Origin: Arenibacter sp. F20364
GTDB taxonomy: Bacteria > Bacteroidota > Bacteroidia > Flavobacteriales > Flavobacteriaceae
DNA length: 64,000 nt
NCBI RefSeq assembly: GCF_023015905.1
Contig: NZ_JALKBD010000003.1
Location: 124,001 to 188,000, forward strand
Direction: 5' to 3'
The position numbers and the translations under genes were made by a program. Below, piece by piece: positions 2,887-18,469 of this stretch. The notes beneath the pieces are model-generated. The model worked only from the letters and a program-made list of their open reading frames with translations, searched no databases and was not told the origin of the DNA. The stretch's first letter is position 1, and each line of letters opens with the position of its first letter.

Positions 2887-4323
2887 TCATAATATTTGTA
2901 GTTTCATTTTTTCGAATCCCGATTTGGGAGCGGCACAAACAGGACAGCAATAATCCCCACTGAGGTCTGCAAATGGAGTTCCAACGGCGACCTGCGATTT
3001 GGCATCACCATAGGTCTCATCATAAACGGTGAAACAGGAACTACATTGATACACTTCCTTTAATATGTCCACATTCGTATTCTTCGGAGCTTCCTTTTTG
3101 GGCACAGCCCGCCCCAGTTGATCGAAATAATTTTTACTAAGTTCCATTAACAGACCCGGTAGCTCTATCTTGTCCACGTCTTGGGCATACGCTTGGTATT
3201 CCTGAGTATTGGGGTCAAAATTTTTAAAGTGTAAAACATTGTATGTGGGCCTTACTGCAAAGCCTTTCACTATAGTGGGTTGGGTGTTCTTTTCAATGAT
3301 AACAGATGAGAAATGGGTTCGTTTCCCCGATTCATTACTGATTCCAAAGGTTAATCCATAAGTACTGATGTCGTTTTGGTCAAAACTCAACACCAAGAAT
3401 TTTTTCAGCTCCAATGCCTCCATATCATCCACAGGTAGATGCCAGTTCATTTCCAATTGTGAATGTCTAATGTTAATACCCTTTTGTCCCAAAAAACGTT
3501 CCAGTTCTGGCCTGCTGGAGCTTTTAATACCTTTGATAATAAACGATTTCCATGGCGTGATGCATATTTTCCCTATGCTGTTGTCCAAACAAAAGCTACA
3601 TAATTTTTTAAGAAAATCAAGATCATATCTATTGTTTCGCCAATAAAGTCCTAGCCAGTATTGATCCAGCCCCATTCTGTTCATTCCTTCATAATAAGGA
3701 AATTTAATGTAGGGAACCACCAGCTCCCGTTCTATTGTTCTGTTATTGGCATCCAATTTTTTATTAAGTATAAAAAATAGTTCATCAATGTCCGCGATGT
3801 CCTTGTAAATATCCTCAATGGCCTTGGCTACAGTGTTTATGTCCCAACTGTAAATAAGCACAGGGTAGTATACGGATTTGCTCCAGTGCGGAAGTTTAAT
3901 GTTCAGGTACCAATAATCCTCACTATCCGAAGCAATAAAGTTAAGGTTGCCATTAAAAATAGGAACCAAACGTTGCTTGGGGTCGGTGATGTTGATCTTT
4001 AATTTGGGCAGATAATCAAAACCCTCCAAAATGTATAAATAAGTGGATCCCTTGAGCCAGTTGGTCATATCAAAAATATCTGCTGACACATAGGAAGTTA
4101 CTATATTTTGGTAACTTCTATCGCTAACAATATCGGTGTTGAATTTTGATATTTGTTCCAATTGTTCCTCCTTGGCATTTTGCAAAGGGAACAACAAATC
4201 TTGCCGCGATCCAAAAAATACTTCTTTCAGCCCCCCTGCTTCCAACATGGCAATGATATCCTTTAATTCCCCGGGAGAAGTAACTCCTCCCTTGATCAAT
4301 ATTCGGTGTAAATCATCATTCAT
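2887..4323 (-). CDS. Rubredoxin fused to a sulfite/nitrite-reductase-like fold
   Basis: This is a 478-residue protein starting at the ATG at 4323, 11 nt after the nitrate reductase stop. A longer frame with a GTG start would overlap that gene and is rejected. The last 55 residues are a rubredoxin: CSSC near residue 426 and CPVC near 457 form the two Cys pairs that bind one iron. The first 400 residues look like two ferredoxin-like half-domains of the sulfite/nitrite reductase fold. There is a 'GGVTSPGELKDI' segment at the N-terminus and 'GKICITPWKSFII' near residue 250, resembling the 'LTPW' segment of that family. The Cys pattern that binds siroheme and [4Fe-4S] (Cx5C...Cx3C) is absent, so catalysis by the classical route is unlikely. 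Position makes it a likely electron carrier or assembly partner for the nitrate reductase; that is inference. Confidence 0.7.
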   Translation of the reverse strand: MNDDLHRILIKGGVTSPGELKDIIAMLEAGGLKEVFFGSRQDLLFPLQNAKEEQLEQISKFNTDIVSDRSYQNIVTSYVSADIFDMTNWLKGSTYLYILEGFDYLPKLKINITDPKQRLVPIFNGNLNFIASDSEDYWYLNIKLPHWSKSVYYPVLIYSWDINTVAKAIEDIYKDIADIDELFFILNKKLDANNRTIERELVVPYIKFPYYEGMNRMGLDQYWLGLYWRNNRYDLDFLKKLCSFCLDNSIGKICITPWKSFIIKGIKSSSRPELERFLGQKGINIRHSQLEMNWHLPVDDMEALELKKFLVLSFDQNDISTYGLTFGISNESGKRTHFSSVIIEKNTQPTIVKGFAVRPTYNVLHFKNFDPNTQEYQAYAQDVDKIELPGLLMELSKNYFDQLGRAVPKKEAPKNTNVDILKEVYQCSSCFTVYDETYGDAKSQVAVGTPFADLSGDYCCPVCAAPKSGFEKMKLQIL

Positions 4324-4334
4324 AACACTATTTT

Positions 4335-7300
4335 TTATGTGGTAACTGTTTGTAACTGTTTGCGCAAAATATCCTGTATTTCCGGTTTGCAACTTCCACA
4401 GCCAAGTCCTGCACCAGTCTCCGAACACAGTTTGGAGAATTCTTCACACCCTCCATTAATGGTTTCAATAAGATTGCCCTCCCCTACTTGACTGCAAGAA
4501 CAAACCAATTTTCCTTTCAAGGGCACAGAATTTGATTGCCCCCTTAACAATTCGTTCCGCTTCTCAGATAGTTCAATTTCCTCTTCTATAAGTCTTTTAA
4601 ATTCGGCAAACTCGTTTTTATCCCCCATTAAGATGGCCCCTTTTAGGGTGTCATCTTTTACGATGCATTTTTTATAATATTTCTTGCTGACGTCCATTAG
4701 GATAATCTCTTCATAACTATTGTCGTCTACGGGAGCATTCACCATTCCCAGACTACAGAGGTCCAAGTTTTCAAACTTTAATATGTTCATAAGGATAGAT
4801 CCATTGTAGATACTGCTAAAATCGCCCAAGATGTATTTTGCGGCTGTATCTGCCTGTTGTTCGGCTGCAGAAGTAATTCCAAAAAGGGCATTTCTAAATT
4901 CCGCAATCTCCCCAAGGGCAAAAATATTGGGATCACTAGTTTGCAAATATTCATTAACTACCACTCCTCTGCCGGTCTTGAGTTCGGAATGTTTACCCAA
5001 TTCAATATTGGGACGGGTACCAATAGCATAGACTATGGCGTTGCACTTTAAAGTCCTACCGGTTTTTAAGGTAATCGAAAGCGTATTCGTGTCATCCCTT
5101 TCCTCGAATACAGTACTTACCTCATTATCAAAATAAACCTTGATTCCCCTATCATTGACATCCTCTGCCAATAGTCGACTTGCAATCCTATCCAACTGTC
5201 TTTCCATTAACCTTGGGGCACGTTGAATAATACTGATATTGACATTTCTGTTCTTAAGCGCCGCTGCCAGCTCCAGCCCCAAAAGTCCTCCTCCAACAAT
5301 AACCACATGTTGTTCCTCGGCAGGAAGGCCGGTGGCCCCTAAATATTTACGTAATTTATCGGCATCCCCTCGTTCTCTCATCGTAAAACGGCCCGGCATG
5401 TTTATTTGCACCTCACTAGGAACAAAGGCCCTACTACCAGTGGCCATTATTAGGATATCATAGGCATGTTCAAAACCATTGTCGTCCATGACCGTTTTAT
5501 TTTTCCTATCAATTTGGGTTACCCCTAGGCCAGAATGTAGGGTAACATTTAATTTCTCAAGTTCCCCTTTTTTTAATTTTTCCAATGCTTCCCAAGAAAG
5601 CTCCTCGCTAACATATTCTGGGAGTAATACCCTATTATAGAAGGGATCCTTTTCCTTGGAAAAAACGTGAAGTTCATCTGTTTCATTCTTCTCCCTATAG
5701 GTCTGGATAAATCTATAGGCAGCAGCTCCTGCACCGATAATTAGAATCTTCTGTTTCGGCTTTACATATTTTGCCACTTCCACGGCACAATATTTAAAAT
5801 CAGGTTCTTTGGACACGGGATCTACCAGATCATTGGTCAAATTATTGGCCCTTCCAAAGTCGTTATTGAGCACCTTGCCCCAATGCATTGGAAGGAAGAC
5901 TACTTTCTCGCGTATATCAAAATTCACCTTCACTTTAACCCGGACCGTTCCTCTCCTACTTTTTATCACGGCTATATCTCCATCCTTTAATTTTCGCAAA
6001 TAGGCATCCACTTTGTTCATTTCCAAATAGGGATCCGGAATATGGGTAAGCAGACGTTTTACCTTTCCGGTTTTTGTGCGGGTATGCCATTGGTCCCTCA
6101 CCCTCCCGGTATTGAGAATCAATGGATATTCGGGGGTTGTTGTTTCGGACTTGTTGTAAAGTGCTGTAGGGGCATTGAAGTGCGATTTTTTATCGTTGGT
6201 AAAGAATTGATGATCCGTAAACAACCTGGGGGTACCCTTGTGTGTAGTGTGGGGTACTGGCCATTGGAAGCTACCCTCTGTCTTCAATCGATCATGGGAC
6301 AGGCCGGATATATCTATTTCGGTGCCCTTTGTTAAAAGGCAATGTTCATCGTATACTTCACTTGCATTCTTATAGTCAAATCCATGATACCCCATTTTTT
6401 GGGCGAACTTCCATAAAATTTCTGCGTCCGGTAAAGCCTCTCCTGGCGCATCGATGACTTTGGGAAGATAACTTATCCGTCTTTCGGAATTGGTCATAGT
6501 CCCTTCCTTTTCCAACCAGCCTGCGGCCGGTAAGAGCAGGTCGGCAAACTTGGTCGTCTCCGAATTGTGCGAAATATCCTGAACTACCACAAAATTGGCA
6601 TTTTTTAGTGCCTTTTCAGCTTTGTGTACATTGGGCATGCTCACGACGGGATTGGTGCAGATTATCCATACGGCCTTCATTTTTCCACTTTCCAGAGCGT
6701 CGAACATCTCAGTGGCGGTATAGCCGGGCTCGGATTTTATTTCTTTTCCACCCCAAAAATCCGACACTTGCTTGCGGTGTTTGGGATTGCCCAACTCCCT
6801 ATGGGCTGCGAGTAAGCTGGCCATACCCCCTACTTCCCTTCCACCCATGGCGTTGGGCTGCCCGGTAAGCGAAAATGGTCCTGCCCCAGGTTTTCCGATC
6901 TGCCCGGTGAGCAGTGACAGATTCATTAATGCCACGTTTTTGGAAACACCAATGACACTTTGGTTGAGCCCCATAGTCCACATACTTATAAAAGCATTGG
7001 CGTTGCCTATATACATGGCCGCCTTCTTGATGTCCTCTACAGGAATTCCACAAAGTTCGGCAGCCTTTTTCATCGAAAGTTGAAAGGCGCTCTCTTTAAC
7101 CGCATCGAAATTTACGGTATGCTTTTTAATGAAGTTTCTGTCTATTTTTTTCTTTTCAATCAACCAGCGGGCTATGGCATTGAAAAGAATTACATCCGTT
7201 CCCGGTAAAATTTGTAAATGAAGATCCGCCGCGGCACAGGTCTGTGTTTTCCTAGGGTCTACCACTATTATTTTTACGTCCGGATTGTTCTCCTTGTGAT

Positions 7301-7868
7301 TTTCTATTCGTCTGAATAGGATGGGATGACACCAGGCTGGATTTGCCCCTGCGATGAGAAAGCAATCCGAAAGCTCTATATCTTCATAAGAAATGGGCAC
7401 AGAATCCTCGCCCAACATTTTTTTATAACCCACAACGGCAGAACTCATGCAGAGCCTGGAATTGGTATCTATATTATTGGTGCCAATAAAGCCTTTGGTC
7501 AATTTATTAACCAAATAATACTCTTCGGTAAGACACTGACCGGAAACATAAAAGCCAACACTATCCGGACCATGTTTTTCTATAATGCTTTTAAATACGG
7601 CTGCTGCCCTGTCAAATGCCGTATCCCAAGAAACTCTTTGTAAAGGGTGATTTCTGCTCCATCTCATTTCCGGATATAAGATCCGGTCACTAACATCCTG
7701 GGCCACGTAATTAAGATTCTTCCCTTTGGAACATAACATACCTTTGTTAACGGGATAAACTTGATCTCCTTCAACACTAATATTGCCCTTAGAGTCTTGT
7801 TCCACCACAATGCCACACCCAACGCCACAGTAGGAGCAAATAGTTTTATGTTCGTTCTTTTTCTGCAT
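4335..7868 (-). CDS. nasA: Assimilatory nitrate reductase fused to NAD(P)H-type diaphorase
   Basis: A 1177-residue protein that should reduce nitrate to nitrite in the cytoplasm. Residues 1-60 hold the [4Fe-4S] motif C11-x2-C14-x3-C18...C46 of bacterial molybdopterin reductases. The molybdopterin catalytic domain follows to about 560, then the dinucleotide-binding domain to about 690 ('LNTGRVRDQWHTRT'). A complete FAD/NAD(P)H domain starts near 705 ('ILIIGAGAAAYRF') with a second Rossmann motif ('VIVGGGLLGLELA'). A BFD-like [2Fe-2S] domain ends the protein (CSC near 1121 and CGSC near 1160). The FAD and BFD parts resemble those of NirB. Nitrate reductases in other bacteria use a separate NasB or ferredoxin, so here the donor module is fused. 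A single TACGTA lies 63 nt upstream. Confidence 0.93.
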   Translation of the reverse strand: MQKKNEHKTICSYCGVGCGIVVEQDSKGNISVEGDQVYPVNKGMLCSKGKNLNYVAQDVSDRILYPEMRWSRNHPLQRVSWDTAFDRAAAVFKSIIEKHGPDSVGFYVSGQCLTEEYYLVNKLTKGFIGTNNIDTNSRLCMSSAVVGYKKMLGEDSVPISYEDIELSDCFLIAGANPAWCHPILFRRIENHKENNPDVKIIVVDPRKTQTCAAADLHLQILPGTDVILFNAIARWLIEKKKIDRNFIKKHTVNFDAVKESAFQLSMKKAAELCGIPVEDIKKAAMYIGNANAFISMWTMGLNQSVIGVSKNVALMNLSLLTGQIGKPGAGPFSLTGQPNAMGGREVGGMASLLAAHRELGNPKHRKQVSDFWGGKEIKSEPGYTATEMFDALESGKMKAVWIICTNPVVSMPNVHKAEKALKNANFVVVQDISHNSETTKFADLLLPAAGWLEKEGTMTNSERRISYLPKVIDAPGEALPDAEILWKFAQKMGYHGFDYKNASEVYDEHCLLTKGTEIDISGLSHDRLKTEGSFQWPVPHTTHKGTPRLFTDHQFFTNDKKSHFNAPTALYNKSETTTPEYPLILNTGRVRDQWHTRTKTGKVKRLLTHIPDPYLEMNKVDAYLRKLKDGDIAVIKSRRGTVRVKVKVNFDIREKVVFLPMHWGKVLNNDFGRANNLTNDLVDPVSKEPDFKYCAVEVAKYVKPKQKILIIGAGAAAYRFIQTYREKNETDELHVFSKEKDPFYNRVLLPEYVSEELSWEALEKLKKGELEKLNVTLHSGLGVTQIDRKNKTVMDDNGFEHAYDILIMATGSRAFVPSEVQINMPGRFTMRERGDADKLRKYLGATGLPAEEQHVVIVGGGLLGLELAAALKNRNVNISIIQRAPRLMERQLDRIASRLLAEDVNDRGIKVYFDNEVSTVFEERDDTNTLSITLKTGRTLKCNAIVYAIGTRPNIELGKHSELKTGRGVVVNEYLQTSDPNIFALGEIAEFRNALFGITSAAEQQADTAAKYILGDFSSIYNGSILMNILKFENLDLCSLGMVNAPVDDNSYEEIILMDVSKKYYKKCIVKDDTLKGAILMGDKNEFAEFKRLIEEEIELSEKRNELLRGQSNSVPLKGKLVCSCSQVGEGNLIETINGGCEEFSKLCSETGAGLGCGSCKPEIQDILRKQLQTVTT

Positions 7869-7930
7869 AAAATCCTTGTATTAAAAGAAACCAATTAAAT
7901 ATGATCTAAAATTACCAAATTAAGTATAAA

Positions 7931-7936
7931 TACGTA
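7931..7936. promoter_or_regulatory. TACGTA palindrome upstream of nitrate reductase
   Basis: One TACGTA in the 208-bp gap between the response-regulator gene and nasA, 63 nt before the nasA ATG. The same palindrome is clustered at the other two control regions of the island, so it is probably an operator of the shared regulator. Confidence 0.5.
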
Positions 7937-8076
7937 GTAATTTATTGATAATAGTTGGGCAGAATATTGACGAAAAGACAATAAAATTGCTTTTTCATTG
8001 GATATTACAGAATATATATATGCCTAGAACGACTTAATTATACTGTAAGTCAATAAAAAATAGCTATTTAGGTAGA

Positions 8077-8748
8077 TTAGACCAGTTTATACTCCTGAGC
8101 TTTTTTGGCAAGATCCATAAGATTATTTACGCCCATTTTTCGCATTAAATTAAAGCGATGGGTTTCAATGGTACGTTTGCTTTTTTGAAGTTTTTCAGAA
8201 ATTTGCTTGTTGGTAAGCCCGGAAAGGACAAGTTCCAAAATTTGTAATTCCTTACTGGTGATCCCAAAGGAGTTATTTCCGTTTTTTGAGGGAAGCTTGC
8301 TTTCCTGTTTTGTCTGTCCCTGATTCAACAGATTGTTTACCAAAACATTGGAAATATCACCACTGAAATATTTACCACCTTGTTCAACTGTGGAAATGGC
8401 CTTAAGAAACTCGGTTTTTCCGGTATCCTTCAATAAATAACCACTGGCTCCTGCGTTAACGGATTTTAGGATATACTCCTCAGAATCGTGCATGGAAAGT
8501 ATAATAGATTTGGTGGTTGAAGAATGTTTTTTGAGTTCCTCTACTGCTTCTATACCATTCATTTCGGGCATTCGGATATCGATGATCAAGAGATCGGGTT
8601 TTTTATCCAATACCATTTGAACGGCCTCCTTACCATTGGAGACCTCCCCAATGACTTCATAATTGGCATCTTCTTCCAATAATGCCCTAATACCATCCCT
8701 TACCAGGGAATGGTCATCGGCCAATACAATACGCGTCGTTTTATCCAC
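8077..8748 (-). CDS. NarL/FixJ-family response regulator
   Basis: A 223-residue two-domain regulator. Residues 1-120 are a receiver domain with the acidic pair D11-D12, phosphoacceptor D57 ('LLIIDIRMP') and the conserved Lys of 'YLLKDTG'. Residues 160-215 are a LuxR-type helix-turn-helix ('GLTNKQISEKLQKSKRTIETH'). It is directly upstream of nasA in the same direction. No kinase is adjacent, but a NarX-like kinase lies at the other end of the island (16622-18469) and is its natural partner. I infer that it controls nitrate/nitrite genes, possibly through the TACGTA sites. Confidence 0.9.
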   Translation of the reverse strand: MDKTTRIVLADDHSLVRDGIRALLEEDANYEVIGEVSNGKEAVQMVLDKKPDLLIIDIRMPEMNGIEAVEELKKHSSTTKSIILSMHDSEEYILKSVNAGASGYLLKDTGKTEFLKAISTVEQGGKYFSGDISNVLVNNLLNQGQTKQESKLPSKNGNNSFGITSKELQILELVLSGLTNKQISEKLQKSKRTIETHRFNLMRKMGVNNLMDLAKKAQEYKLV

Positions 8749-8930
8749 AATAATCTGTTCTTTACAAACAAATATAGGATAAAATTAAAACTAAGTATTC
8801 ATACGGTGAAAATAGATGTTGCAATTTTGAATGTAAACCTCAATCACAAAGGCATTTTACATATGGTTTGTTATGGAGCCGCATTTTGGTTAAGAGTCTT
8901 TTAATGAAGATTTACAGTGGTGGGTATTAA

Positions 8931-8962
8931 ATCAAAAACCCCGACAATTTCGGGGCTTTGAT
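8931..8962 (-). terminator. Hairpin terminator after the porin gene
   Basis: The arms 8931-8943 and 8951-8962 pair around a GC-rich core (ccccg/cggggc) with AT-rich ends; the minus-strand product runs into Ts. It starts about 10 nt beyond the porin stop codon. Confidence 0.8.
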
Positions 8963-8972
8963 GATCATTGGT

Positions 8973-10256
8973 CTATTTGGAAGTATTCAAAAATTTGGGT
9001 TTGATGACCAACATGGCCCATGCCCAGTTTTGGCTACTGGCGGCAGCATCCTCAGTGATACCCTTTAATTCATACATGCCATCATTGGCAAACATTTGGG
9101 AATAACCCAGTTGTAGGGAATAACCGTTGAATGCCTGCGAAAAAACAAGATCCAATTCTGTCCCCAACGATTTTTCCCCACTGGGCAATTCTTGTTCTCC
9201 ACTAAAGTTAAGTGCCTTGACCATTAAGCTAGATTTCTCCCCAAGTTTGAAATTGGCACTCACATGAACATCGAACAATCCAACTGAATTGGCATGATTT
9301 CCTACGTAGAAATAATCCATAAATCCATTGAATTTATGATTGGTGCCGTAAAGGGGGAAAAAGGCTTCCATTTTATCCCCAGTACTGGTATCGTTGCCAC
9401 TTATCATTTCCAATCCCGCCCCTAGGGCAACTTTGGCGGAGGCCTTGTATTTAAAATCAAGTCCCAACAAATAGGCGCCACCTACATCAACTGCACCTTG
9501 TCTTTCCCCAGTTTGAATAAAAGCGTTCAAAGCAGCCCCGAAACTTCCCTTTTTATAATCTAAATGTGTGCCTAGGGTCTGTAAATTGCTTATACCGTCA
9601 GGCGTTGTGCCATCAACTTCAAAATTCTGGAAGCCATTGTTCAACATCAAAAGACTTCCGTTAAGATTTTTCCAACCTTGTTTTAGGTATAGGTATTGCA
9701 TTGTTTTATAGGAGAAGAACCCAGTAGTGTTATAGGCATTCCCAACCGATTGAAAGCCACTTGGGTTATCATAGTCTTGACTAAATGCCAAGCCAAGATC
9801 CAACTGAAAACTCCCTATGGCGTATTTTAAAATTGCGGCATCGTGATTACGTCCCTGTTGTGTCCAGCCAACACTGCCCATTATTCGCTGATCGTCGTAG
9901 TCCAAGGTCTGTCTTCCCAATTTGGCGGAAAAATTACTTCCCAAATTTATATCTGCCCAGGCCTCGAAAACGGCGAAGGAATTATTCTCATCATCTGGTA
10001 GAAGCTGTCTGTTTTCGCCCCATACCATGACGTCTTGAAGGCTTAGGTAAAAGGTATACGCATCAATGACATAGCCAGCATTTAATCGCATACGGGTTGA
10101 AACCCCAAAACCGGCATCTGCATCATCGGCAATTATACTGCCAAAACCGTGACGTAATTCGGTTCGAGGTCTAAATTCTCCATCCAAAGTAAACTGTGCT
10201 CTGGCAATTGATCCATAAAGGGATATTAGGGTAAATAAAATATATATTGGTTTCAT
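8973..10256 (-). CDS. Outer-membrane porin (alginate-export-like), probable nitrate porin
   Basis: A 427-residue beta-barrel protein. The ATG at 10256 is chosen over one at 10301 because it begins a proper signal peptide (MKPIYILFTLISLYGSIARA, cleaved before Gln). The mature protein opens with 'EFRPRTELRHGFG' and continues with 'TRMRLNAGY', 'AKLGRQTLDYDDQR' and alternating aromatic strands, the pattern of the alginate-export/phosphate-selective porin-like family of Bacteroidetes. It lies between the nitrate regulator and narK, all on the minus strand, and is followed by a clear terminator. The location suggests passage of nitrate or nitrite across the outer membrane; the substrate is inferred from context only. 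Confidence 0.8.
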   Translation of the reverse strand: MKPIYILFTLISLYGSIARAQFTLDGEFRPRTELRHGFGSIIADDADAGFGVSTRMRLNAGYVIDAYTFYLSLQDVMVWGENRQLLPDDENNSFAVFEAWADINLGSNFSAKLGRQTLDYDDQRIMGSVGWTQQGRNHDAAILKYAIGSFQLDLGLAFSQDYDNPSGFQSVGNAYNTTGFFSYKTMQYLYLKQGWKNLNGSLLMLNNGFQNFEVDGTTPDGISNLQTLGTHLDYKKGSFGAALNAFIQTGERQGAVDVGGAYLLGLDFKYKASAKVALGAGLEMISGNDTSTGDKMEAFFPLYGTNHKFNGFMDYFYVGNHANSVGLFDVHVSANFKLGEKSSLMVKALNFSGEQELPSGEKSLGTELDLVFSQAFNGYSLQLGYSQMFANDGMYELKGITEDAAASSQNWAWAMLVIKPKFLNTSK

Positions 10257-10478
10257 CTGTAGATAGGTATTTATTAGTTTAGGAGTAGAACCAGTAAACA
10301 TAAGAATAAAATTGCCATTAATCGTCCAGGTTCCTGTAAAGAATTATTGTTTCCTGTGTCGTATTTTGATCAGAATTACGGAATGAAATAATCGCAAATA
10401 TCCATTCCGTATTCTGTTTTAAATTTCAGTGGTTTTTCGGGTTAAAGTGCCACAATGGGCACAGCAGATAATTCCCAT

Positions 10479-11897
10479 TTATTTATCGACTCCTGATAAT
10501 ATAAGCTCTGCCTTAGTTTCTTCAATAACAGCCATTTCATCGGCCGTAGCAAACTTAATAGCTAGGGATAGAAGGGCTGCTAATACTATAAATCCTCCTA
10601 TTACAAAAAATCCGCTGGATACTGCAGAAGCGGCAGCGGTAGTCTGGGCAGCCTTTACAGCCTGCTCGCCCAATTCGCTGTTGGCGGCTATGGCAGCACT
10701 TTCGGCCACGGCCGATTTGGATTTTAATAACATGGCGGCCAAAAAGGCTCCAACGTTTCCTCCTGCCCCAACAATTCCGGAAATAGATCCTATTGCCTTC
10801 TTGTTAATAAAGGGCACAACTGAGAAAGTGGCGCCTTCTGCCATTTGTACGGTAAGACTAAAAGCTATCAAAAATATCATGCCAAATACCAGACTGGTGG
10901 TCACTGAAAAGATGGAAAGCATTAGGCCCTCCGTAGCCAAAATCAAGGCAAGAAAAATTACCCTACCACGTAATCCTCGTAATTTGCCGAATAGATCGCC
11001 GAAATAGCCCCCTAATGTCCGGGCAAAAATATTCATAAGGGCAAACGACAATACCAAATTTCCTGCCGTAGAACGATCCAGGCCAAATCTATTCTGAAGA
11101 TAATCGTCCATGGTACCATACACTGTTAATTCTATTCCAAAACAAGCCGCGTAAACTAGAAACAAGATCCAGACCCTGTAATCCTTTAATGTGCTCAAGA
11201 AGGATACTTCATCTTTCTTTAAATTAGGCATTTTACCTGCCAGCTTCAATTCTTTAAAATTGCCTTCAGGCGTATCCCTGGTAAAGAAGTAATATATAAG
11301 TCCCATTGAGAAGCAAATAACCCCGGCAATTACCATAGAATATCTCCAGGCAACTTCATCCGCAATTCCAAAACTAACAACTCCTGCTGCGATCAATGGC
11401 ATTCCCAAACGGTTGGCCCCTCCACCTAGATTTCCCCAGCCTGCAGACGTAGCATTTGCCGTACCTACTATATTGGGAGCGAACATTATAGAAGTATGGA
11501 ATTGGGTTATTACGAAAGAAGCGCCAATAAAACCAATAAATAACCTACAAATTAGAAATTGTAGCGGCGTTTGTACAAAACCTAGAAGTATAACAGGGAT
11601 GGAACCTAGAATCAATAAATAGGTATAGCATAATCTAGGACCATATTTATCACATAATTTTCCAATTAACAAACGGGCAAATACGGTTCCCGAAACAGCC
11701 AAAATAATGGAATTCCACTTTTGCGTTGGGGTCAATCCCAAGTCTTTAACAACATCGGGCATAAAAGGAACGATACCGAACCATGCAAAAAAACAAATGA
11801 AAAAGGCTATTGAGGTAATCCAAAACGTACGTATTGGTATACTCCTCAAGTTTAAAAGTTCTAATTTCGTAGCTTTAGCAGAGACAAATTCTTTCAT
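10479..11897 (-). CDS. narK: NarK-type nitrate/nitrite transporter (MFS)
   Basis: A 472-residue inner-membrane transporter with about 12 hydrophobic segments. The ATG at 11897 is preferred; an upstream frame would need TTG and would run into the promoter. Both signature segments of the nitrate/nitrite porter family are present: 'AGWGNLGGGANRLG' in the N-half and 'GIVGAGGNVGAFLA' in the C-half. The MFS loop motif 'GKLCDKYGPR' is also there. The segment near the C-terminus between the last helices is Ala-rich and longer than usual. It probably imports nitrate and may export nitrite. Its promoter carries three TACGTA palindromes and a TATTTTTG -7 box. Confidence 0.93.
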   Translation of the reverse strand: MKEFVSAKATKLELLNLRSIPIRTFWITSIAFFICFFAWFGIVPFMPDVVKDLGLTPTQKWNSIILAVSGTVFARLLIGKLCDKYGPRLCYTYLLILGSIPVILLGFVQTPLQFLICRLFIGFIGASFVITQFHTSIMFAPNIVGTANATSAGWGNLGGGANRLGMPLIAAGVVSFGIADEVAWRYSMVIAGVICFSMGLIYYFFTRDTPEGNFKELKLAGKMPNLKKDEVSFLSTLKDYRVWILFLVYAACFGIELTVYGTMDDYLQNRFGLDRSTAGNLVLSFALMNIFARTLGGYFGDLFGKLRGLRGRVIFLALILATEGLMLSIFSVTTSLVFGMIFLIAFSLTVQMAEGATFSVVPFINKKAIGSISGIVGAGGNVGAFLAAMLLKSKSAVAESAAIAANSELGEQAVKAAQTTAAASAVSSGFFVIGGFIVLAALLSLAIKFATADEMAVIEETKAELILSGVDK

Positions 11898-11938
11898 AAC
11901 TGAATTGTTTATAGGATTAGTTATTTCGTTTAACAATT

Positions 11939-11946
11939 CAAAAATA
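11939..11946 (-). promoter_or_regulatory. Predicted -7 box of narK (TATTTTTG)
   Basis: On the minus strand this reads TATTTTTG, matching the Bacteroidetes consensus TAnnTTTG, about 42 nt before the narK ATG. No TTTG -33 box is found at the usual distance, which suits an activator-dependent promoter. Its first two bases are shared with a TACGTA site. Confidence 0.5.
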
Positions 11947-11983
11947 CGTATTTCTACGTATTATTACTTATTATTTTTACGTA
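11945..11983. promoter_or_regulatory. Three TACGTA palindromes in the narK control region
   Basis: Copies at 11945-11950, 11955-11960 and 11978-11983. The first two are 10 bp apart, one helical turn. The closest one overlaps the -7 box of narK by two bases. Confidence 0.6.
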
Positions 11984-12103
11984 ATACTGAAAATAAGTAG
12001 TGTTTTTATGAAGGTGGGAAAATATTAAGCTTGCGATTGTGAAATTGTAATTAATTAGTTAGTCCTGTTGCCATATTGTAAATGTGAGGTTTTAGTTTGA
12101 TAC

Positions 12104-12871
12104 CTAATAGTAGAGTGCACGTTGGATTTCCTCTTCAAAAAAGGATGGATGTTCGGCTACTACTTCCCCAACAACTATTATTCCAGGTTGTGCAATATCG
12201 ATTTGGTCAACAAGGGAGCCTGCATCTTTTAGAAGTCCAGTTAAACAGGTTTCGTTCTCAACAGTTCCATTTTGAATAACGGCAAAAGGGGTTAGTCCAT
12301 TTCTATTCTCAGCAATTTTATCAGCTATTTCCAAAAATCTACGTACTCCCATTAATATGATCATGGTAGCAGATGACTTGGCAGCAAGCTCCAGATCTTC
12401 GGAAAAGGAGCCATCGCGTTTTGTGGCTGTCATCACCCAAAAGCTGCTGCTTATTCCCCGTCTGGTTACCGGAATTCCCTGGCTGGCAGGAACGGCTATG
12501 GCACTGGTTACCCCTGGCACCACTGTTACAGGTATACCGAATGATTCCACGTATTCCAATTCTTCACTGGCTCTACCGAATACAAAAGGATCGCCTCCCT
12601 TTAATCGCACAACATGTCCGTGGATAAAGGCTTTTTCTACTATTAATTTATTAATCTCCTCTTGGGTTAGGGAATGCTCTCCACATCTTTTCCCTACATA
12701 GATTTTGGGAATATCCGGATTTAGTTCCTGAAGTAAATCCGTACTTATAAGAGCATCATATAAGATTACATCGGCATCTTCCAATGTTCTGTATCCTCTA
12801 ATGGTAATAAGGTCGCTACTTCCCGGACCAGCACCTACTAAACTAACTTTTGGGTCTTTGGATATACTCAT
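12104..12871 (-). CDS. cobA: Uroporphyrinogen-III C-methyltransferase (siroheme pathway)
   Basis: A 255-residue SUMT. It methylates uroporphyrinogen III with S-adenosylmethionine to precorrin-2, the first committed step toward siroheme, the cofactor of NirB. Family motifs are all visible: 'SLVGAGPGSSDLITIRG' at the N-terminus, 'VRLKGGDPFVFGRASEE' in the middle, and 'TSAIAVPASQGIPVTRRG'. Length is that of a single-domain SUMT; the dehydrogenase/ferrochelatase part of CysG is not fused and not elsewhere in the window. It is divergent from nirB and shares its 126-bp control region with five TACGTA sites. Confidence 0.95.
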   Translation of the reverse strand: MSISKDPKVSLVGAGPGSSDLITIRGYRTLEDADVILYDALISTDLLQELNPDIPKIYVGKRCGEHSLTQEEINKLIVEKAFIHGHVVRLKGGDPFVFGRASEELEYVESFGIPVTVVPGVTSAIAVPASQGIPVTRRGISSSFWVMTATKRDGSFSEDLELAAKSSATMIILMGVRRFLEIADKIAENRNGLTPFAVIQNGTVENETCLTGLLKDAGSLVDQIDIAQPGIIVVGEVVAEHPSFFEEEIQRALYY

Positions 12872-12911
12872 GATTTCTACTTTTTTAGATGTGCAATTAA
12901 GAATTTCGCAA

Positions 12912-12919
12912 CAAACCTA
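12912..12919 (-). promoter_or_regulatory. Predicted -7 box of cobA (TAGGTTTG)
   Basis: On the minus strand this reads TAGGTTTG, a match to TAnnTTTG, about 41 nt before the cobA ATG. A TACGTA overlaps it by exactly two bases, the same register seen at narK. Confidence 0.5.
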
Positions 12920-12998
12920 CGTATTTATTTTCATAAAAACATATAAATATTACGTAATTATACGTAATATTGCTACGTAACATTTAATAGTATACGTA
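12918..12998. promoter_or_regulatory. Five TACGTA palindromes between cobA and nirB
   Basis: Copies at 12918-12923, 12951-12956, 12961-12966, 12974-12979 and 12993-12998, in the 126-bp divergent gap. Two lie 10 bp apart. The last one ends on the A of the nirB start codon. Confidence 0.65.
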
Positions 12999-15514
12999 TG
13001 AAGACCGTAATTGTAGTTGGAAATGGAATGGTTGGATACAAATTCTGTGAGAAATTTGTTTCCAAAGTTGACCAAGACTCCTTTAAGCTAATTGTTTTCG
13101 GAGAAGAACCAAGAGTGGCCTATGATAGGGTACATTTAAGCGAGTATTTTGAAAATGGTGATGCGGAGCGTTTATCCATGGCTCCTAGAGAATGGTACCA
13201 GGAAAATAACATTGAACTTTATACCAATGAGAGGGTAACGGATATTCACAGAAATTCAAAAACAATAACAACGCTAAGCGATAAGACCTTTAATTATGAT
13301 TACCTGGTTTTGGCAACAGGCTCGAGTCCTTTTGTTCCACAAATAAATGGAGTGGATAAGGATGGTGTGTTCGTATATAGGACCATAGAGGATTTGGAAG
13401 ATACCCTTGCTTATGCCGAAAAGATAAAACAAACCGTTGCCAAACCGAAGGCGGCCATATTAGGAGGTGGATTATTGGGTCTAGAAGCGGCCAAGGCCGT
13501 AATGGACATGGGATTGGAGCCCCATGTGATTGAATTTGCTCCTAAATTAATGCCAAGACAATTGGATACCAGGAGTAGTAAGGTACTTCAAGTAAAACTG
13601 GAGTCTATGGGAATCAATATTCATTTGAGCAAAGCAACCAATCAAATTCTAGGCAATGGCCATGTCATAGGAATGGAGTTTGGGGAAGATGACTTACTTA
13701 ATGTAGATATGTTGGTGATTTCAGCAGGAATAAGACCTAGGGACGAATTGGGAAAAAGTTGCGGCCTTAAAATGGGTACCAGAGGTGGTATAGTGGTGGA
13801 TAATAAAATGAGAACTTCAGACCCCAGTATTTTTGCTATTGGGGAAATAGCCCTTTATAACCAAATGATCTATGGTCTGGTTGCTCCGGGATACGAGATG
13901 GCAGGTGTTGCAGTAGATCAAATTCTAGGTAATGAAGAAACCCTTATGGCAGCAGAAATAGATATGTCCACCAAACTTAAATTGATCGGTGTGGACGTAG
14001 CCAGTTTTGGGACGCCATTTATGCCAGCAGAAAAAGGTCACTCCATTATTTTTGAAAACAAAACAGAAAGCCTTTATAAGAGAATCAATGTAAGTCATGA
14101 CGGTAAAAAACTTTTAGGGGGGATCCTGGTAGGTGATGCCAAAGATTACAACATGCTCTTGCAGATGTATCTGAATGAAATGCCTCTGCCCAAAAATCCA
14201 GAAAACCTTATTCTAGGAAGTCGAGGTGGTGAGGATGTGTCATTTGGCAGTGCCATGGATCTTCCGGATACGGCCGTGGTATGTTCCTGTGAAGCTGTGA
14301 CCAAAGGTCAAATATGTTGCTCGGTAAAAGATGATGGTAACGAAAGTGTAAAGGCCATTTCCAAAGCTACCAAGGCTACTACAGGTTGTGGCGGGTGTAA
14401 ACCAATGGTAGTCGATCTAGTCAAGGAAACCCTTAAATCCTTGGGTAAAGTGGTAAAGGAATCCATTTGCGAGCATTTTGAATATTCTAGACAAGAACTG
14501 TATGATATTGTTAAACTGAGGAAAATTGAAGATTACGATTCCTTGTTGGACGGGGTTGGGAAAGGACATGGATGTGAAGTTTGTAAACCTGCAGTTGCCT
14601 CAATATTTGCCAGTATTTATAATGAAACTGCCAATAGGCAAGCAACTATTCAGGATACTAATGATCGATATTTGGCCAATATTCAAAGAAATGGAACCTA
14701 TTCTGTTGTTCCAAGGGTGGCAGCCGGAGAAATTACCCCAAAACAACTGTTGGCCATTGGTAGAATAGCTCAAAAATATGATTTGTATACCAAAATTACG
14801 GGCGGGCAGCGTATAGACATGTTCGGCGCACAATTACACGAATTACCCCTTATATGGGAAGAATTGATAGCAGAAGGTTTTGAAACCGGTCAGGCCTACG
14901 GCAAATCACTACGTACCGTTAAAAGTTGTGTAGGTTCTACCTGGTGCCGATATGGGATGGATGAAAGTGTGACATTTGCCATAGATATCGAGAACCGTTA
15001 CAAGGGCATACGCTCCCCTCATAAAATTAAGGGAGGTGTTTCCGGATGTATTAGGGAATGTGCAGAGGCCAGGAATAAAGATTTCGGTTTTATCGCTGTT
15101 GAAGGTGGATGGAACGTATATATATGTGGCAATGGTGGAGCCAATCCACAACATGCACAATTGCTTGTCGAAAAGGTAGACAAGGTAACTGCCACAAAAT
15201 ATGTGGACCGATTCTTAATGTACTATATACAGACCGCTCCTCCCCTAACCCGTACAGCTGCCTGGTTGGATAAACTGGAAGGTGGTATAGATTATGTGAA
15301 AGATGTGGTTATCAACGATTGTCTCGGTATTGCGGAAGAATTGGATATGGAAATGCAACATTTGGTGGATACTTACAAGTGCGAATGGAAAGAGGCCGTT
15401 GAAAATCCTGAAATAAGGGCAAGGTACACTCATTTTGTAAATGCCGAAGAAGCCGATGACACTATCGAATTTGTTTCCTTAAGAGAGCAGAAAATGCCGA
15501 AAGCGTGGGCTTAG
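12998..15514 (+). CDS. nirB: Assimilatory nitrite reductase, large subunit
   Basis: An 838-residue cytoplasmic enzyme that reduces nitrite to ammonium with NAD(P)H. The order is FAD/NAD(P)H domain (1-300, 'VIVVGNGMVGYKF' and 'AILGGGLLGLEAA'), BFD-like [2Fe-2S] domain (CSC near 427, CGGC near 466), a second half BFD segment (CEVC near 528), then the siroheme/[4Fe-4S] domain. Its ligands are intact: CVGSTWC near 644 and CIREC near 683. Length is typical of NirB. The ATG at 12998 overlaps a TACGTA palindrome. nirD follows after 88 nt. Confidence 0.97.
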   Translation: MKTVIVVGNGMVGYKFCEKFVSKVDQDSFKLIVFGEEPRVAYDRVHLSEYFENGDAERLSMAPREWYQENNIELYTNERVTDIHRNSKTITTLSDKTFNYDYLVLATGSSPFVPQINGVDKDGVFVYRTIEDLEDTLAYAEKIKQTVAKPKAAILGGGLLGLEAAKAVMDMGLEPHVIEFAPKLMPRQLDTRSSKVLQVKLESMGINIHLSKATNQILGNGHVIGMEFGEDDLLNVDMLVISAGIRPRDELGKSCGLKMGTRGGIVVDNKMRTSDPSIFAIGEIALYNQMIYGLVAPGYEMAGVAVDQILGNEETLMAAEIDMSTKLKLIGVDVASFGTPFMPAEKGHSIIFENKTESLYKRINVSHDGKKLLGGILVGDAKDYNMLLQMYLNEMPLPKNPENLILGSRGGEDVSFGSAMDLPDTAVVCSCEAVTKGQICCSVKDDGNESVKAISKATKATTGCGGCKPMVVDLVKETLKSLGKVVKESICEHFEYSRQELYDIVKLRKIEDYDSLLDGVGKGHGCEVCKPAVASIFASIYNETANRQATIQDTNDRYLANIQRNGTYSVVPRVAAGEITPKQLLAIGRIAQKYDLYTKITGGQRIDMFGAQLHELPLIWEELIAEGFETGQAYGKSLRTVKSCVGSTWCRYGMDESVTFAIDIENRYKGIRSPHKIKGGVSGCIRECAEARNKDFGFIAVEGGWNVYICGNGGANPQHAQLLVEKVDKVTATKYVDRFLMYYIQTAPPLTRTAAWLDKLEGGIDYVKDVVINDCLGIAEELDMEMQHLVDTYKCEWKEAVENPEIRARYTHFVNAEEADDTIEFVSLREQKMPKAWA

Positions 15515-15602: not shown

Positions 15603-15980
15603 ATGATTTCAATTTTAAACACTTACGAAGCAGTGGAGCCAGAAAAAGTGAGTCTTTGGTTTAAGGCGGCCCCTGTAGAAAAATTTCCAGAAAATGGTGG
15701 TGCTTGTGTAAAATACAAGGATAAACAAATTGCAGTTTTTAATTTTACAAGGGAAGGGACATGGTATGCATGCCAAAATTTATGTCCCCATAAGATGGAA
15801 ATGGTGTTGTCCAGGGGAATGATAGGGGAAGACCAAGGCGAGCCCAAAGTAGCCTGTCCCCTGCATAAAAATTCCTTTTCATTAAAAACGGGCAAGCATC
15901 TAAATGGGGATTTGAATAGCATAGCAACATATCCGGTTAAAATAGAGAACGACTTTGTTTATATTGGTTTTTCTGAATAG
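15603..15980 (+). CDS. nirD: Nitrite reductase small subunit, Rieske type
   Basis: A 125-residue NirD. It has the Rieske [2Fe-2S] ligand pairs, 'CPHKME' (Cys-x-His) near residue 60 and 'ACPLHKNSF' (Cys-x2-His) near residue 83. It partners NirB in the NAD(P)H-dependent reduction of nitrite. The gene is 88 nt after nirB and 24 nt before the DUF4202 gene. A 12-bp perfect inverted repeat (15961-15972 with 15988-15999) spans its stop codon. Confidence 0.93.
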   Translation: MISILNTYEAVEPEKVSLWFKAAPVEKFPENGGACVKYKDKQIAVFNFTREGTWYACQNLCPHKMEMVLSRGMIGEDQGEPKVACPLHKNSFSLKTGKHLNGDLNSIATYPVKIENDFVYIGFSE

Positions 15981-15999
15981 CTTTGGAAAAAACCAATAT
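15961..15999 (+). other. Perfect 12-bp inverted repeat across the nirD stop
   Basis: Left arm atattggttttt (15961-15972), right arm aaaaaccaatat (15988-15999), loop 15 nt. It includes the nirD stop in the loop and ends 5 nt before the next ATG, so it could hide the start of the DUF4202 gene or mark an RNA-processing site. There is no T-run after it on the plus strand. Confidence 0.5.
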
Positions 16000-16004
16000 C
16001 GAAC

Positions 16005-16592
16005 ATGGCCTCAGAAAAACTAAAAAATGCCTTTCACTTATTTGACAAGGCAAATGAAAATGATCCGAATAAGGAGATGTGGCAGGGTCAGGAATATCCA
16101 AAGGAGTTACTGTACGCCATCAGAATGACCGAGAAGTTAAATAGGTATGCTCCGGAAGCACCGGAATCGCTACAACTTACCGCTAGATGTCAGCATATTC
16201 AAAGGTGGGAAATTCCTAGGGAATCCTATGAAATGAACAGAACCGGCTATTTAAAATGGCGACAGGACCTAAAAAAGTTTCATGCTCAGAAGGCGGGTGC
16301 CATCCTTAGGGAAGTGGGTTATGATCAAGAAATGATAAATAAGGTAGCTTTTTTATTGGAAAAGAAGCAACTTAAAAAAAATTCGGAGACACAGACCTTG
16401 GAAGATGTTATATGCCTTGTCTTTCTGGAGTTCTATTTCGAGCCATTTTCGCATAAATATCCCGAGGAAAAATTAATTGAAATCCTTCAAAAAACATGGC
16501 GAAAAATGTCCGATAAAGGGCATCAAGCTGCATTAAAGCTACCCTTGTCCAAGGATTCCCTAGACTTGATAGGCAGAGCACTTAAGGGATAA
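16005..16592 (+). CDS. DUF4202-family protein linked to nitrite reductase
   Basis: A 195-residue soluble protein without a signal peptide. It resembles the DUF4202 family, known mainly from nitrogen-assimilation neighbourhoods; the biochemical role is unknown. Visible features are conserved His, Arg, Trp and Glu residues in 'CQHIQRWEIPRESY' near residue 61 and a mostly helical composition. Its spacing after nirD and before the kinase suggests one transcript nirB-nirD-DUF4202-kinase. I assign the family from recall of its motifs, not from a search. Confidence 0.75.
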   Translation: MASEKLKNAFHLFDKANENDPNKEMWQGQEYPKELLYAIRMTEKLNRYAPEAPESLQLTARCQHIQRWEIPRESYEMNRTGYLKWRQDLKKFHAQKAGAILREVGYDQEMINKVAFLLEKKQLKKNSETQTLEDVICLVFLEFYFEPFSHKYPEEKLIEILQKTWRKMSDKGHQAALKLPLSKDSLDLIGRALKG

Positions 16593-16621
16593 GGGCTAAT
16601 TTTTATCAATACTATTTGGGA

Positions 16622-18469
16622 ATGAAAGACGATAAATACCTTGCACCATTGGACACAAGTACTTTCCTAAGAATAAGGAAGTGGTATTTGTTTGCCTTGG
16701 CTACTATCGCTTTGAGCATTATCGTTGCCCAAATATTGATACAACACCATTTAAATTCCCAATTAAATGATTCTAAAGTAATCAACGTTGCAGGTAGACA
16801 AAGGGCCTATAGTCAAAAATTGACCAAGGAAGTATTGCTATTGAAGGAATTGTCCAATACTGAACAGCAAAATCAAATAATCACAGAATTGAGGGAAACC
16901 TTGTCCATTTGGAAAGATTCCCATCAAGCCCTGCAATTTGGTGATGTGTCCATGGGTATTTCAAAAGGAGAGAACGAGGAGATAAAAGTTCTTTTTCAAA
17001 ATATAAACCCCCACTATAATGCCATGGTAGGTGCCGTTGAGGATATTTTAACGGATTTTGAGGCAACCGGTACTTCAATTCCAAACCAATTACAGGTTAA
17101 TATCCTCTTGGAGAATGAACGTAACTTCTTGAATATGATGGATATCATCGTTAATAAATATGATGAGCTAAGTAAAACACATTTACAGGATTTAAAGTTT
17201 AAAGAATATCTATTATTGGCTATTTCCCTTCTGATTCTGCTGCTGGAGATAGTTTTCATTTTTAAACCCCTTTCCGTTCAGATTAGAAATACGATCAAGA
17301 ATTTGATAGTCGCCCAAAAGAAATCGGAAGAAAGTACCAAGGAGATTAAAAAGCTATTCCAGGAAAAGGAAAAATCGTTACAGGAGTTACAGGAACTTAA
17401 TTTTGTGATAGACAACGCCGCCCTTTTCGCAAGCGCCAAGCAAGATGGTAATGTTGTTTTTATCAGTAAAAAGTTCAATGAACTTTTGGGACGTACCGAT
17501 CAGGATATAAATAGGCCGTTGTACGAAATGTTGACTACGGATGAGGGACAGCAACAATACCTCATGGAGGTATTAAAAAGCAATAGAAAAAATATCAGGA
17601 CGGAGGAAATAAATATAAAGACTCCCAAAGGGGAGTCGCTCTGGTTGGATATGTCCATTATTCCCATGCACCAATCCAGCGCCCAGCAGTCAATACTAAT
17701 ATTGTGCTCCGATATTACCGAACGTAAACAGACCCAACTAAAAGTTGCCCAGTTAACCAAAGAGAATTATGAAAAGACCATGAGGCAAAAGCAGTTGCAG
17801 GCCAGCCAGATTGTTGAAGGTCAGGAAGAGGAGCGTAAACGAATAGCTAAAGATATCCATGATGGAATTGGACAAATGTTAACGGCCCTGAAATTTAATA
17901 TAGAATCTATTAATTTAACCAATAAGGAAAAAACGGCCGAGAAAATAGAATATATTAAAAGTCTTGCCAGTGATTTGATCAAAGGAGTACGTACCGCTAC
18001 TTTTAACCTTACCCCTCCAGAGTTAAGTGATCACGGAATATTTCCCGCGCTACATAAAATGACCCATGAACTCTCCAAGCTTACCGGTAAAAATATACTC
18101 TTCGAAAACAAAACCGAGGAGAACATTCGCTTTAATTCTTTGGCAGAGACCAATATTTATAGGGTGGTACAAGAAGCAGTGAACAATGCCATAAAATACG
18201 CCGATGCCAACTATATTCTGGTTACCCTTAATTTTAATGACAATATTTTAAGTGTTGTTATTGACGATGACGGGAAAGGCTTTGACGATTCCATATTGGG
18301 AAAGGTACCCAAAAATAACAGTGAAGGAGGTATGGGTCTTTTCTTTATGAAGGAAAGGATGAACTATATCAACGGTCGCCTATTTATCAATTCCATCCCA
18401 GGAAAGGGCACCAGGGTCACCATTAACTACAAAACGGATAGGAAAGAATTGATTTCAAAGGATACCTAA
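16622..18469 (+). CDS. NarX-like nitrate/nitrite sensor histidine kinase
   Basis: A 615-residue membrane kinase starting at the ATG at 16622; an in-frame TTG lies six bases upstream. TM helix 1 is near 20-42 and TM helix 2 near 200-220, with a periplasmic domain between. That domain starts with 'INVAGRQRAYSQKL' at about 53-66, matching the P-box of NarX/NarQ and the PilJ-type N-terminal family, where nitrate is bound. A coiled coil (225-265) and a PAS domain (266-375) follow. The HisKA_3 dimerisation domain has the phosphoacceptor H413 ('RIAKDIHDGIGQ'), and a C-terminal ATPase domain follows ('DDDGKGFD', 'GGMGLFFMKERM'). HisKA_3 kinases pair with NarL-type regulators, so the partner is probably the product of 8077-8748. 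Confidence 0.9.
   Translation: MKDDKYLAPLDTSTFLRIRKWYLFALATIALSIIVAQILIQHHLNSQLNDSKVINVAGRQRAYSQKLTKEVLLLKELSNTEQQNQIITELRETLSIWKDSHQALQFGDVSMGISKGENEEIKVLFQNINPHYNAMVGAVEDILTDFEATGTSIPNQLQVNILLENERNFLNMMDIIVNKYDELSKTHLQDLKFKEYLLLAISLLILLLEIVFIFKPLSVQIRNTIKNLIVAQKKSEESTKEIKKLFQEKEKSLQELQELNFVIDNAALFASAKQDGNVVFISKKFNELLGRTDQDINRPLYEMLTTDEGQQQYLMEVLKSNRKNIRTEEINIKTPKGESLWLDMSIIPMHQSSAQQSILILCSDITERKQTQLKVAQLTKENYEKTMRQKQLQASQIVEGQEEERKRIAKDIHDGIGQMLTALKFNIESINLTNKEKTAEKIEYIKSLASDLIKGVRTATFNLTPPELSDHGIFPALHKMTHELSKLTGKNILFENKTEENIRFNSLAETNIYRVVQEAVNNAIKYADANYILVTLNFNDNILSVVIDDDGKGFDDSILGKVPKNNSEGGMGLFFMKERMNYINGRLFINSIPGKGTRVTINYKTDRKELISKDT

Follow-up and report, generated by a model that had tools for sequence, protein, structure and literature searches.

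A probable NarL operator in nitrate-assimilation islands of Bacteroidota: an oriented inverted repeat at the -7 promoter box

The heptamer consensus of E. coli NarL is TACYYMT, and NarL-family regulators as well as a Bacteroidetes class of nitrate sensor are already known. The DNA analysed here (the window) is a stretch of 64,000 nucleotides of Arenibacter sp. F20364 (Flavobacteriaceae; contig NZ_JALKBD010000003.1, positions 124,001 to 188,000), carrying a nitrate-assimilation island with genes for a NarL-type response regulator and a NarX-type kinase. The element in question is the short palindrome TACGTA and the inverted repeat to which it belongs, located in three gaps of the island: before the assimilatory nitrate reductase genes (nas), before the transporter gene narK, and between cobA and nirB. 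Judged from sequence comparisons, this motif is very probably the operator of the island NarL, in a Bacteroidota NarX-NarL system controlling nitrate assimilation.

Nitrate-sensing kinases of Bacteroidetes were described in Flavobacteriales and Cytophagales as PAS-containing and HAMP-less, with a second, PAS-less group; the sensor P-box motif was given as N..[AS]G..R, HAMP and GAF-like domains were reported absent from the Bacteroidetes class, and the available text gives no operators or recognition motifs for these kinases (PMC8199190). The FNR-box consensus is TTGATnnnnATCAA, with an N4 spacer (PMC1274295). In flavobacterial promoters, TAnnTTTG is the -7 box (-12 to -5; PMC9723704), and promoters without the -33 TTTG or TTG element were described as weaker (PMC2483708).

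An oriented repeat in the island gaps and in related genomes

Eighteen copies of TACGTA were counted in the window; dinucleotide shuffles (n = 100) contained 6.8 on average and 16 at most, none reaching 18. Half of the copies (9/18) lie within the three gaps, at the very positions listed in an earlier note on this DNA: 7931 (nas gap); 11945, 11955 and 11978 (narK gap); 12918, 12951, 12961, 12974 and 12993 (cobA-nirB gap), the last of which (12993-12998) overlaps the nirB ATG (12998). The copies that the note had placed elsewhere stand as well, but one at 26864 had been left out.

Comparison of the DNA upstream of nirB across other species revealed a better unit than TACGTA alone, namely the inverted repeat TAMGTA-N4-TACKTA (TAMGTANNNNTACKTA). 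It occurs at four places in the 5.74-Mb genome, all in the three island gaps (one at nas, two overlapping at narK, one at nirB), and TACGTANNNNTACGTA occurs at two, both in island gaps; in the whole-genome controls with reversed letters, six places were found for TAMGTANNNNTACKTA and one for TACGTANNNNTACGTA. TTACGTAA and plain pairs of TACGTA (spacing 0-30) were rejected as the unit, being too unspecific: genome-wide, neither was enriched over its reversed control (77 versus 156, and 9 versus 11, with six of the nine pairs in the island).

The repeat is strictly oriented: in the 79 nirB upstream regions described below, TAAGTA-N4-TACTTA has 22 copies and TACTTA-N4-TAAGTA none. The opposite orientation, TACKTA-N4-TAMGTA, was likewise discarded; in the window genome it occurs only where both halves are TACGTA, and before nirB elsewhere not at all. 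A position weight matrix (PWM), built from 45 nirB promoters of species other than that of the window, scored 20 or more at eight window positions, all in the three gaps, and the next best match in the window reached 11.9. Simulated windows (n = 100) scanned with the same PWM gave an average of 0.09 matches at 14 or more and a maximum of 18.1. A weak candidate operator before narL (Table 1) scored below the best chance-level match elsewhere in the window. The nirB repeat, read on the minus strand, may also serve cobA.

The earlier remark that several TACGTA copies stand about 10 base pairs (bp) apart was borne out by 29 loci that carry window-type operators and were hand-picked, roughly one per genus: in the 180 bp upstream, half-sites are phased at approximately 10.7 bp (R 0.67, a value reached by 0 of 2000 random placements), and a half-site pair at 10 or 11 bp is present in 27 of the 29.

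For comparison across genomes, a NirB search supplied 80 named loci, almost all of them with a Bacteroidota label, and 79 were used (L060 was dropped, its nirB start lying beyond the contig); the place of L045 and L105 among the loci without NarX is due solely to the ends of their contigs. The most over-represented 6-mer before nirB in the NarX-bearing loci was TACGTA (115 copies versus 6.6 expected), present in 44 of the 56 loci and in two or more copies in 37. Where NarX is lacking, TACGTA was found in 1 of 23 loci, the exception being L045, whose contig ends before NarX.

A relaxed composite motif matched 100 times in the 80 loci; with reversed half-sites, as a control, it matched once. The matches lie before nirB (45), narK (14), nas (5), narL (4), cobA (2) and porin genes (2); the other 28 lie outside the 400 bases upstream of any query-set gene on that strand, some being the reverse reading of the palindrome and some lying within nirB. 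Composite-like sequence was seen within the nirB coding region of Flavobacterium loci (L065, L067, L071, L072 and L075 near 10294; L069 near 7002), where it may be just conserved codons.

Of the 119 relatives, 28 have nirB, and 23 of these contain a strict 22-base composite, versus 2 of the 91 that lack nirB (Fisher p 1.2e-17); a NarX homologue is present in the same 28 genomes as nirB. This distribution ties the element to the island but says nothing of the identity of the binder. The extra composites in the nirB-less genomes G030 and G059 had no convincing target gene. In a metagenome-assembled genome labelled Rickettsiales (NP5; locus L096), the nitrate island is Bacteroidota-like and has TACGTA operators; the label or binning of this genome is doubtful.

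Co-variation with the NarL recognition helix

The named loci were compared by the recognition helix of their NarL. With a helix of the form T-x-E-[VT]-H-R-[FY] (ERF type), 44 of 44 loci carry TACGTA or the repeat (TACGTA in 39, the repeat at 4-5 spacing in 41), and they span flavobacteria, Lewinella relatives, Cyclobacterium, Algoriphagus, Chryseolinea and Ohtaekwangia. With NTVANQRA or the close form TVANQRA (Spirosoma or ANA type; Spirosoma, Larkinella, Rhabdobacter and Dyadobacter), TACGTA is found in 0 of 5 loci, and all five carry another repeat, TAGTTA-N4-TAACTA, across the nirB start codon (four exact, L115 with one mismatch; positions in Table 1). This repeat is also present in the contig-cut L105, and TVANQRA is the recognition helix of Spirosoma-type islands wherever NarL lies on the stretch. 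Neither motif was found in the two named loci with an RTVDNHRA NarL, nor in L089 (another NarL, without NarX). In 27 of the 79 loci NarL was not found in the stretch: six of these have NarX and TACGTA, and 21 have neither.

A further set of 24 nirB loci was taken from a phylum sample of 395 genomes (28 nirB matches, minus the window genome, the previously used G018 and two equal to named loci); for L185 and L186 the nirB start is off an ATG, and the upstream windows are approximate. All 14 further loci with a window-type NarX have TACGTA, and 13 (not L204) have the repeat at 4-5 spacing. TAGTTA is present in the single Spirosoma-type locus, and neither motif in the single RTVDNHRA locus or in the eight loci without NarX or NarL in the stretch.

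The operator thus changes together with the recognition helix, which makes the neighbouring NarL its likely reader. The earlier note had proposed a Bacteroidetes nitrate operator bound by the island NarL; the enrichment of the motif in other genomes and its variation with the NarX-NarL type both argue for that proposal.

Promoter overlap and alternative readings

Besides its orientation as an inverted repeat of TAMGTA, one more feature is added here to the earlier description: the operator is joined to a -7 promoter box. The repeat at 4-5 spacing lies no more than 300 bp from nirB in 47 loci. In 37 of them NNTTTG follows the operator directly (background of TTTG, 0.0085 per position), so that the last TA of the repeat is the TA of TAnnTTTG; NN[AT]TT[GA] follows in 43. 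With TAnnTTTG as the -7 box at -12 to -5, the dyad would sit near -18.5 relative to the predicted start sites. Within the window, the full NNTTTG is present only at narK (TATTTTTG); nirB has NNATTG (TAATATTG), and at nas the distance from TA to TTG is one base less than in TAnnTTTG. No -33 TTTG or TTG was visible upstream of 42 aligned operators (window nirB included), which had themselves been picked for an [AT]TT[GA] end.

Several observations weigh against the repeat being an activating operator of the island NarL. TACGTA is missing before nirB in 12 of the 56 NarX-bearing loci: five of these (L053, L059, L061, L062, L074) carry TAAGTA-N4-TACTTA, and the other seven have other NarL types. 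The strict composite is missing from 5 of the 28 relatives with nirB (G012, G018, G041, G085, G105), its reversed control matches 5 of the 119 genomes, and 4 of the 47 operators lack any following NN[AT]TT[GA]. The RTVDNHRA loci L102, L109 and L187 have neither the TACGTA nor the TAGTTA motif, and no motif was seen there by eye, no dedicated search having been made. No NarL, and hence no helix to compare, was found in the stretch in six named loci with NarX and TACGTA, and likewise in 4 of the 14 window-type further loci (L194, L197, L203, L204). Because operator type also follows island phylogeny, and 10 of those 14 loci come from one genus (g84), the co-variation is not independent in every species. 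In addition, many dimeric regulators share an offset of 10 bp, and it is repressors that usually have their site across the -7 box.

The best surviving alternative, which we regard as unlikely, is that the same NarL binds the operator as a repressor and blocks RNA polymerase at the -7 box, with nitrate relieving the block or the system shutting the genes off. The position of the dyad, between -33 and -7 and touching the -7 box, would suit this, and in E. coli frdA is repressed by NarL at sites close to the transcription start (PMC4549865). On the other side, no -33 TTG lies upstream of the operator, and the weakness of flavobacterial promoters of this kind (PMC2483708) suits activation. The recognition helix of the unphosphorylated E. 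coli regulator is covered, so nitrate would raise binding; as repression, nitrate-increased binding makes little sense for assimilation genes. Activation by NarL is tentatively favoured ahead of repression, since the promoters lack a -33 element and the genes use nitrate.

Far less probable is a different binder, the Crp/Fnr-family regulator of other flavobacterial nitrate regions. The composite lies upstream of the Crp-family gene in five loci (L207, L209, L210, L211, L213), and the N4 spacing of the operator equals that of the FNR box (PMC1274295). However, at E 1e-45 an orthologue of this gene is absent from 18 of the 28 relatives with nirB, the window genome included, and 14 of these 18 have the composite; conversely, a remoter Crp-family gene lies in the stretch in 13 of the named loci counted as NarX-less, yet they have no TACGTA before nirB. 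The regulator was set aside on this presence and absence, which covers the orthologue of the candidate. The Crp-family gene is more likely a target than a reader of the operator, and likely forms a second regulon tier in other flavobacteria. By sequence reading, the genes that come after it encode a globin-like protein and a haem-type protein in L207, L210 and L213, and a nitrate ABC-transporter-like protein in one of the five loci. In the 23 loci scored without NarX, 13 of which have a Crp-family gene in the stretch, ATCA/TGAT-type 6-mers are enriched before nirB, which points to control of the Fnr type in the absence of NarXL.

That the motif is a variant of the core promoter or of the translation start, or a chance product of AT-rich gaps, is scarcely credible. 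It does overlap the -7 box and, in places, the start codon, but it is missing from the nirB promoters of islands without NarX-NarL (except the contig-cut L045), and the repeat has a strict orientation and helical phasing and is restricted to a single island in the genome.

For a NarL-read operator, the observed sequence pattern, conservation, promoter overlap and co-variation would most economically fit the following scheme. Nitrate would be sensed in the periplasm by the P-box of the NarX-type kinase, as family knowledge suggests, and the kinase would phosphorylate the island NarL. A NarL dimer would then occupy TAMGTA-N4-TACKTA, each subunit on its own half-site and the two separated by one helical turn, as the geometry and the co-variation indicate; to judge from the phasing, additional half-sites that face the same side of the DNA may aid binding. 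The core promoters look weak and regulator-dependent, because the downstream half-site runs into the -7 TA and no -33 TTG is visible; nitrate would thus turn on nas, narK and nirBD together.

Island genes and comparison with known systems

From left to right, the island encodes a NIR/SIR-rubredoxin protein, a molybdopterin oxidoreductase-NAD(P)H reductase fusion, NarL, an Alginate_exp porin, a NarK-type transporter, CobA, NirB, NirD, a DUF4202 protein, the NarX-type kinase and a DUF7009 protein (Table 1). NarL has the sole DNA-binding domain among the scanned island proteins. Pfam domains agree with the earlier assignment of both a NarL-type regulator and a NarX-like kinase to the island: NarL has the NarL/FixJ architecture (PF00072, E 7.4e-30; PF00196, E 9.7e-18), and NarX has a PilJ N-terminal domain (E 9e-14) with the nitrate P-box VINVAGRQRAYSQKL, which fits N..[AS]G..R, and a HisKA_3 domain (PF07730) with D-x-x-x-Q after the histidine (HDGIGQ); no HAMP or GAF-like domain was found in it by Pfam. 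The nitrate reductase genes reached no NCBIfam nitrate reductase cutoff, so their name rests on the evidence given in Table 1.

Table 1. Features of the island in the window, and positions of the Spirosoma-type repeat in other loci
Feature	Position	Strand	Evidence or detail
Assimilatory nitrate reductase genes	2887..7868	-	best matches and neighbourhood
NIR/SIR-rubredoxin protein	2887-4428	-	
Molybdopterin + NAD(P)H-reductase fusion	4335-7868	-	
nas operon operator, TACGTA-TTTA-TACTTA then ATTTG	7916..7936	-	repeat at 7921-7936; PWM 24.1 at 7915
NarL-type response regulator, proposed binder	8077..8748	-	receiver + GerE (Pfam)
Weak candidate operator before narL, ACCGTA-TGAA-TACTTA-GTTTTA	8786..8807	-	PWM 10.6
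Alginate_exp-type outer-membrane porin	8973..10301	-	Pfam
NarK-type nitrate/nitrite transporter	10479..11936	-	MFS_1; TIGR00886 296 bits, just below cutoff 311.7
narK operator and -7 box, TACGTA-GAAA-TACGTA-TTTTTG	11939..11960	-	PWM 28.7
More narK-gap half-sites	11955..11999	.	TACGTA 11955, TACTTA 11965, TACGTA 11978, TAAGTA 11994
cobA/SUMT, siroheme synthesis	12104..12871	-	TIGR01469
Extra TACGTA half-sites, cobA-nirB gap	12918..12998	.	12918, 12974, 12993
nirB operator and -7 box, TACGTA-ATTA-TACGTA-ATATTG	12951..12972	+	PWM 28.2 (+), 29.1 (-)
nirB, nitrite reductase large subunit	12998..15514	+	NCBIfam NF011565, 1064 bits versus cutoff 883
nirD-like Rieske protein + DUF4202 protein	15603..16592	+	Pfam
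NarX-type nitrate-sensing kinase	16616..18469	+	PilJ, PAS, HisKA_3, HATPase_c (Pfam); P-box NVAGRQR
TAGTTA-N4-TAACTA in other loci	L097 9968-9983; L098 9968; L103 9932; L105 5083; L113 9962; L115 9986; L181		

Flavobacteria are abundant in the sea. The motif lets the regulon be predicted from sequence and ties a kinase class to promoters, and the paired changes of recognition helix and operator offer a direct test of NarL-family specificity. In the passages of open-access PMC literature consulted, no description was found of the sequence of the operator, of the way it joins the -7 box, of the regulon or of the Spirosoma-group operator code. We tentatively suggest, with a little less than even confidence, a separate Bacteroidota NarXL lineage whose regulator sits inside the core promoter, stands in for the missing -33 element and opens promoters that have a -7 box alone; two or more diverged operator codes (TAMGTA and TAGTTA among them) would be read by different recognition helices. 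If true, the two codes would provide a natural series on how NarL-family proteins read DNA.

The closest described systems compare as follows. The island NarX resembles the Bacteroidetes class of nitrate sensors in having PAS and lacking HAMP, and the Spirosoma-group kinases, being short (477-520 amino acids), resemble the PAS-less second group in length (PMC8199190). FNR/DNR-type sites share the 4-base-spacer inverted repeat before nitrogen-oxide genes (PMC1274295); unlike them, the operator here has another sequence and occurs in genomes without the Crp-family gene. The likeness to E. coli NarX-NarL comprises a response regulator of the same family (E. coli NarL, 1a04, is the best PDB match; E 1.2e-30), a kinase with a nitrate P-box, and inverted half-sites one helical turn (10-bp offset) apart, as in the 7-2-7 arrangement. 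The half-site, however, is TAMGTA(T) and not TACYYMT, a difference that the earlier note had already drawn, and the 7-2-7 form TACYYMT-N2-AKRRGTA has 0 copies in the 79 nirB upstream regions. The recognition helices also differ (ESTVKVHVKH in 1a04, SKRTIETHRFN in the island NarL), and, unlike in E. coli, the predicted target genes serve assimilation and the operator falls on the -7 box. As it lacks the E. coli heptamer, the operator is judged to be of another type than the E. coli NarL box, though alike in geometry.

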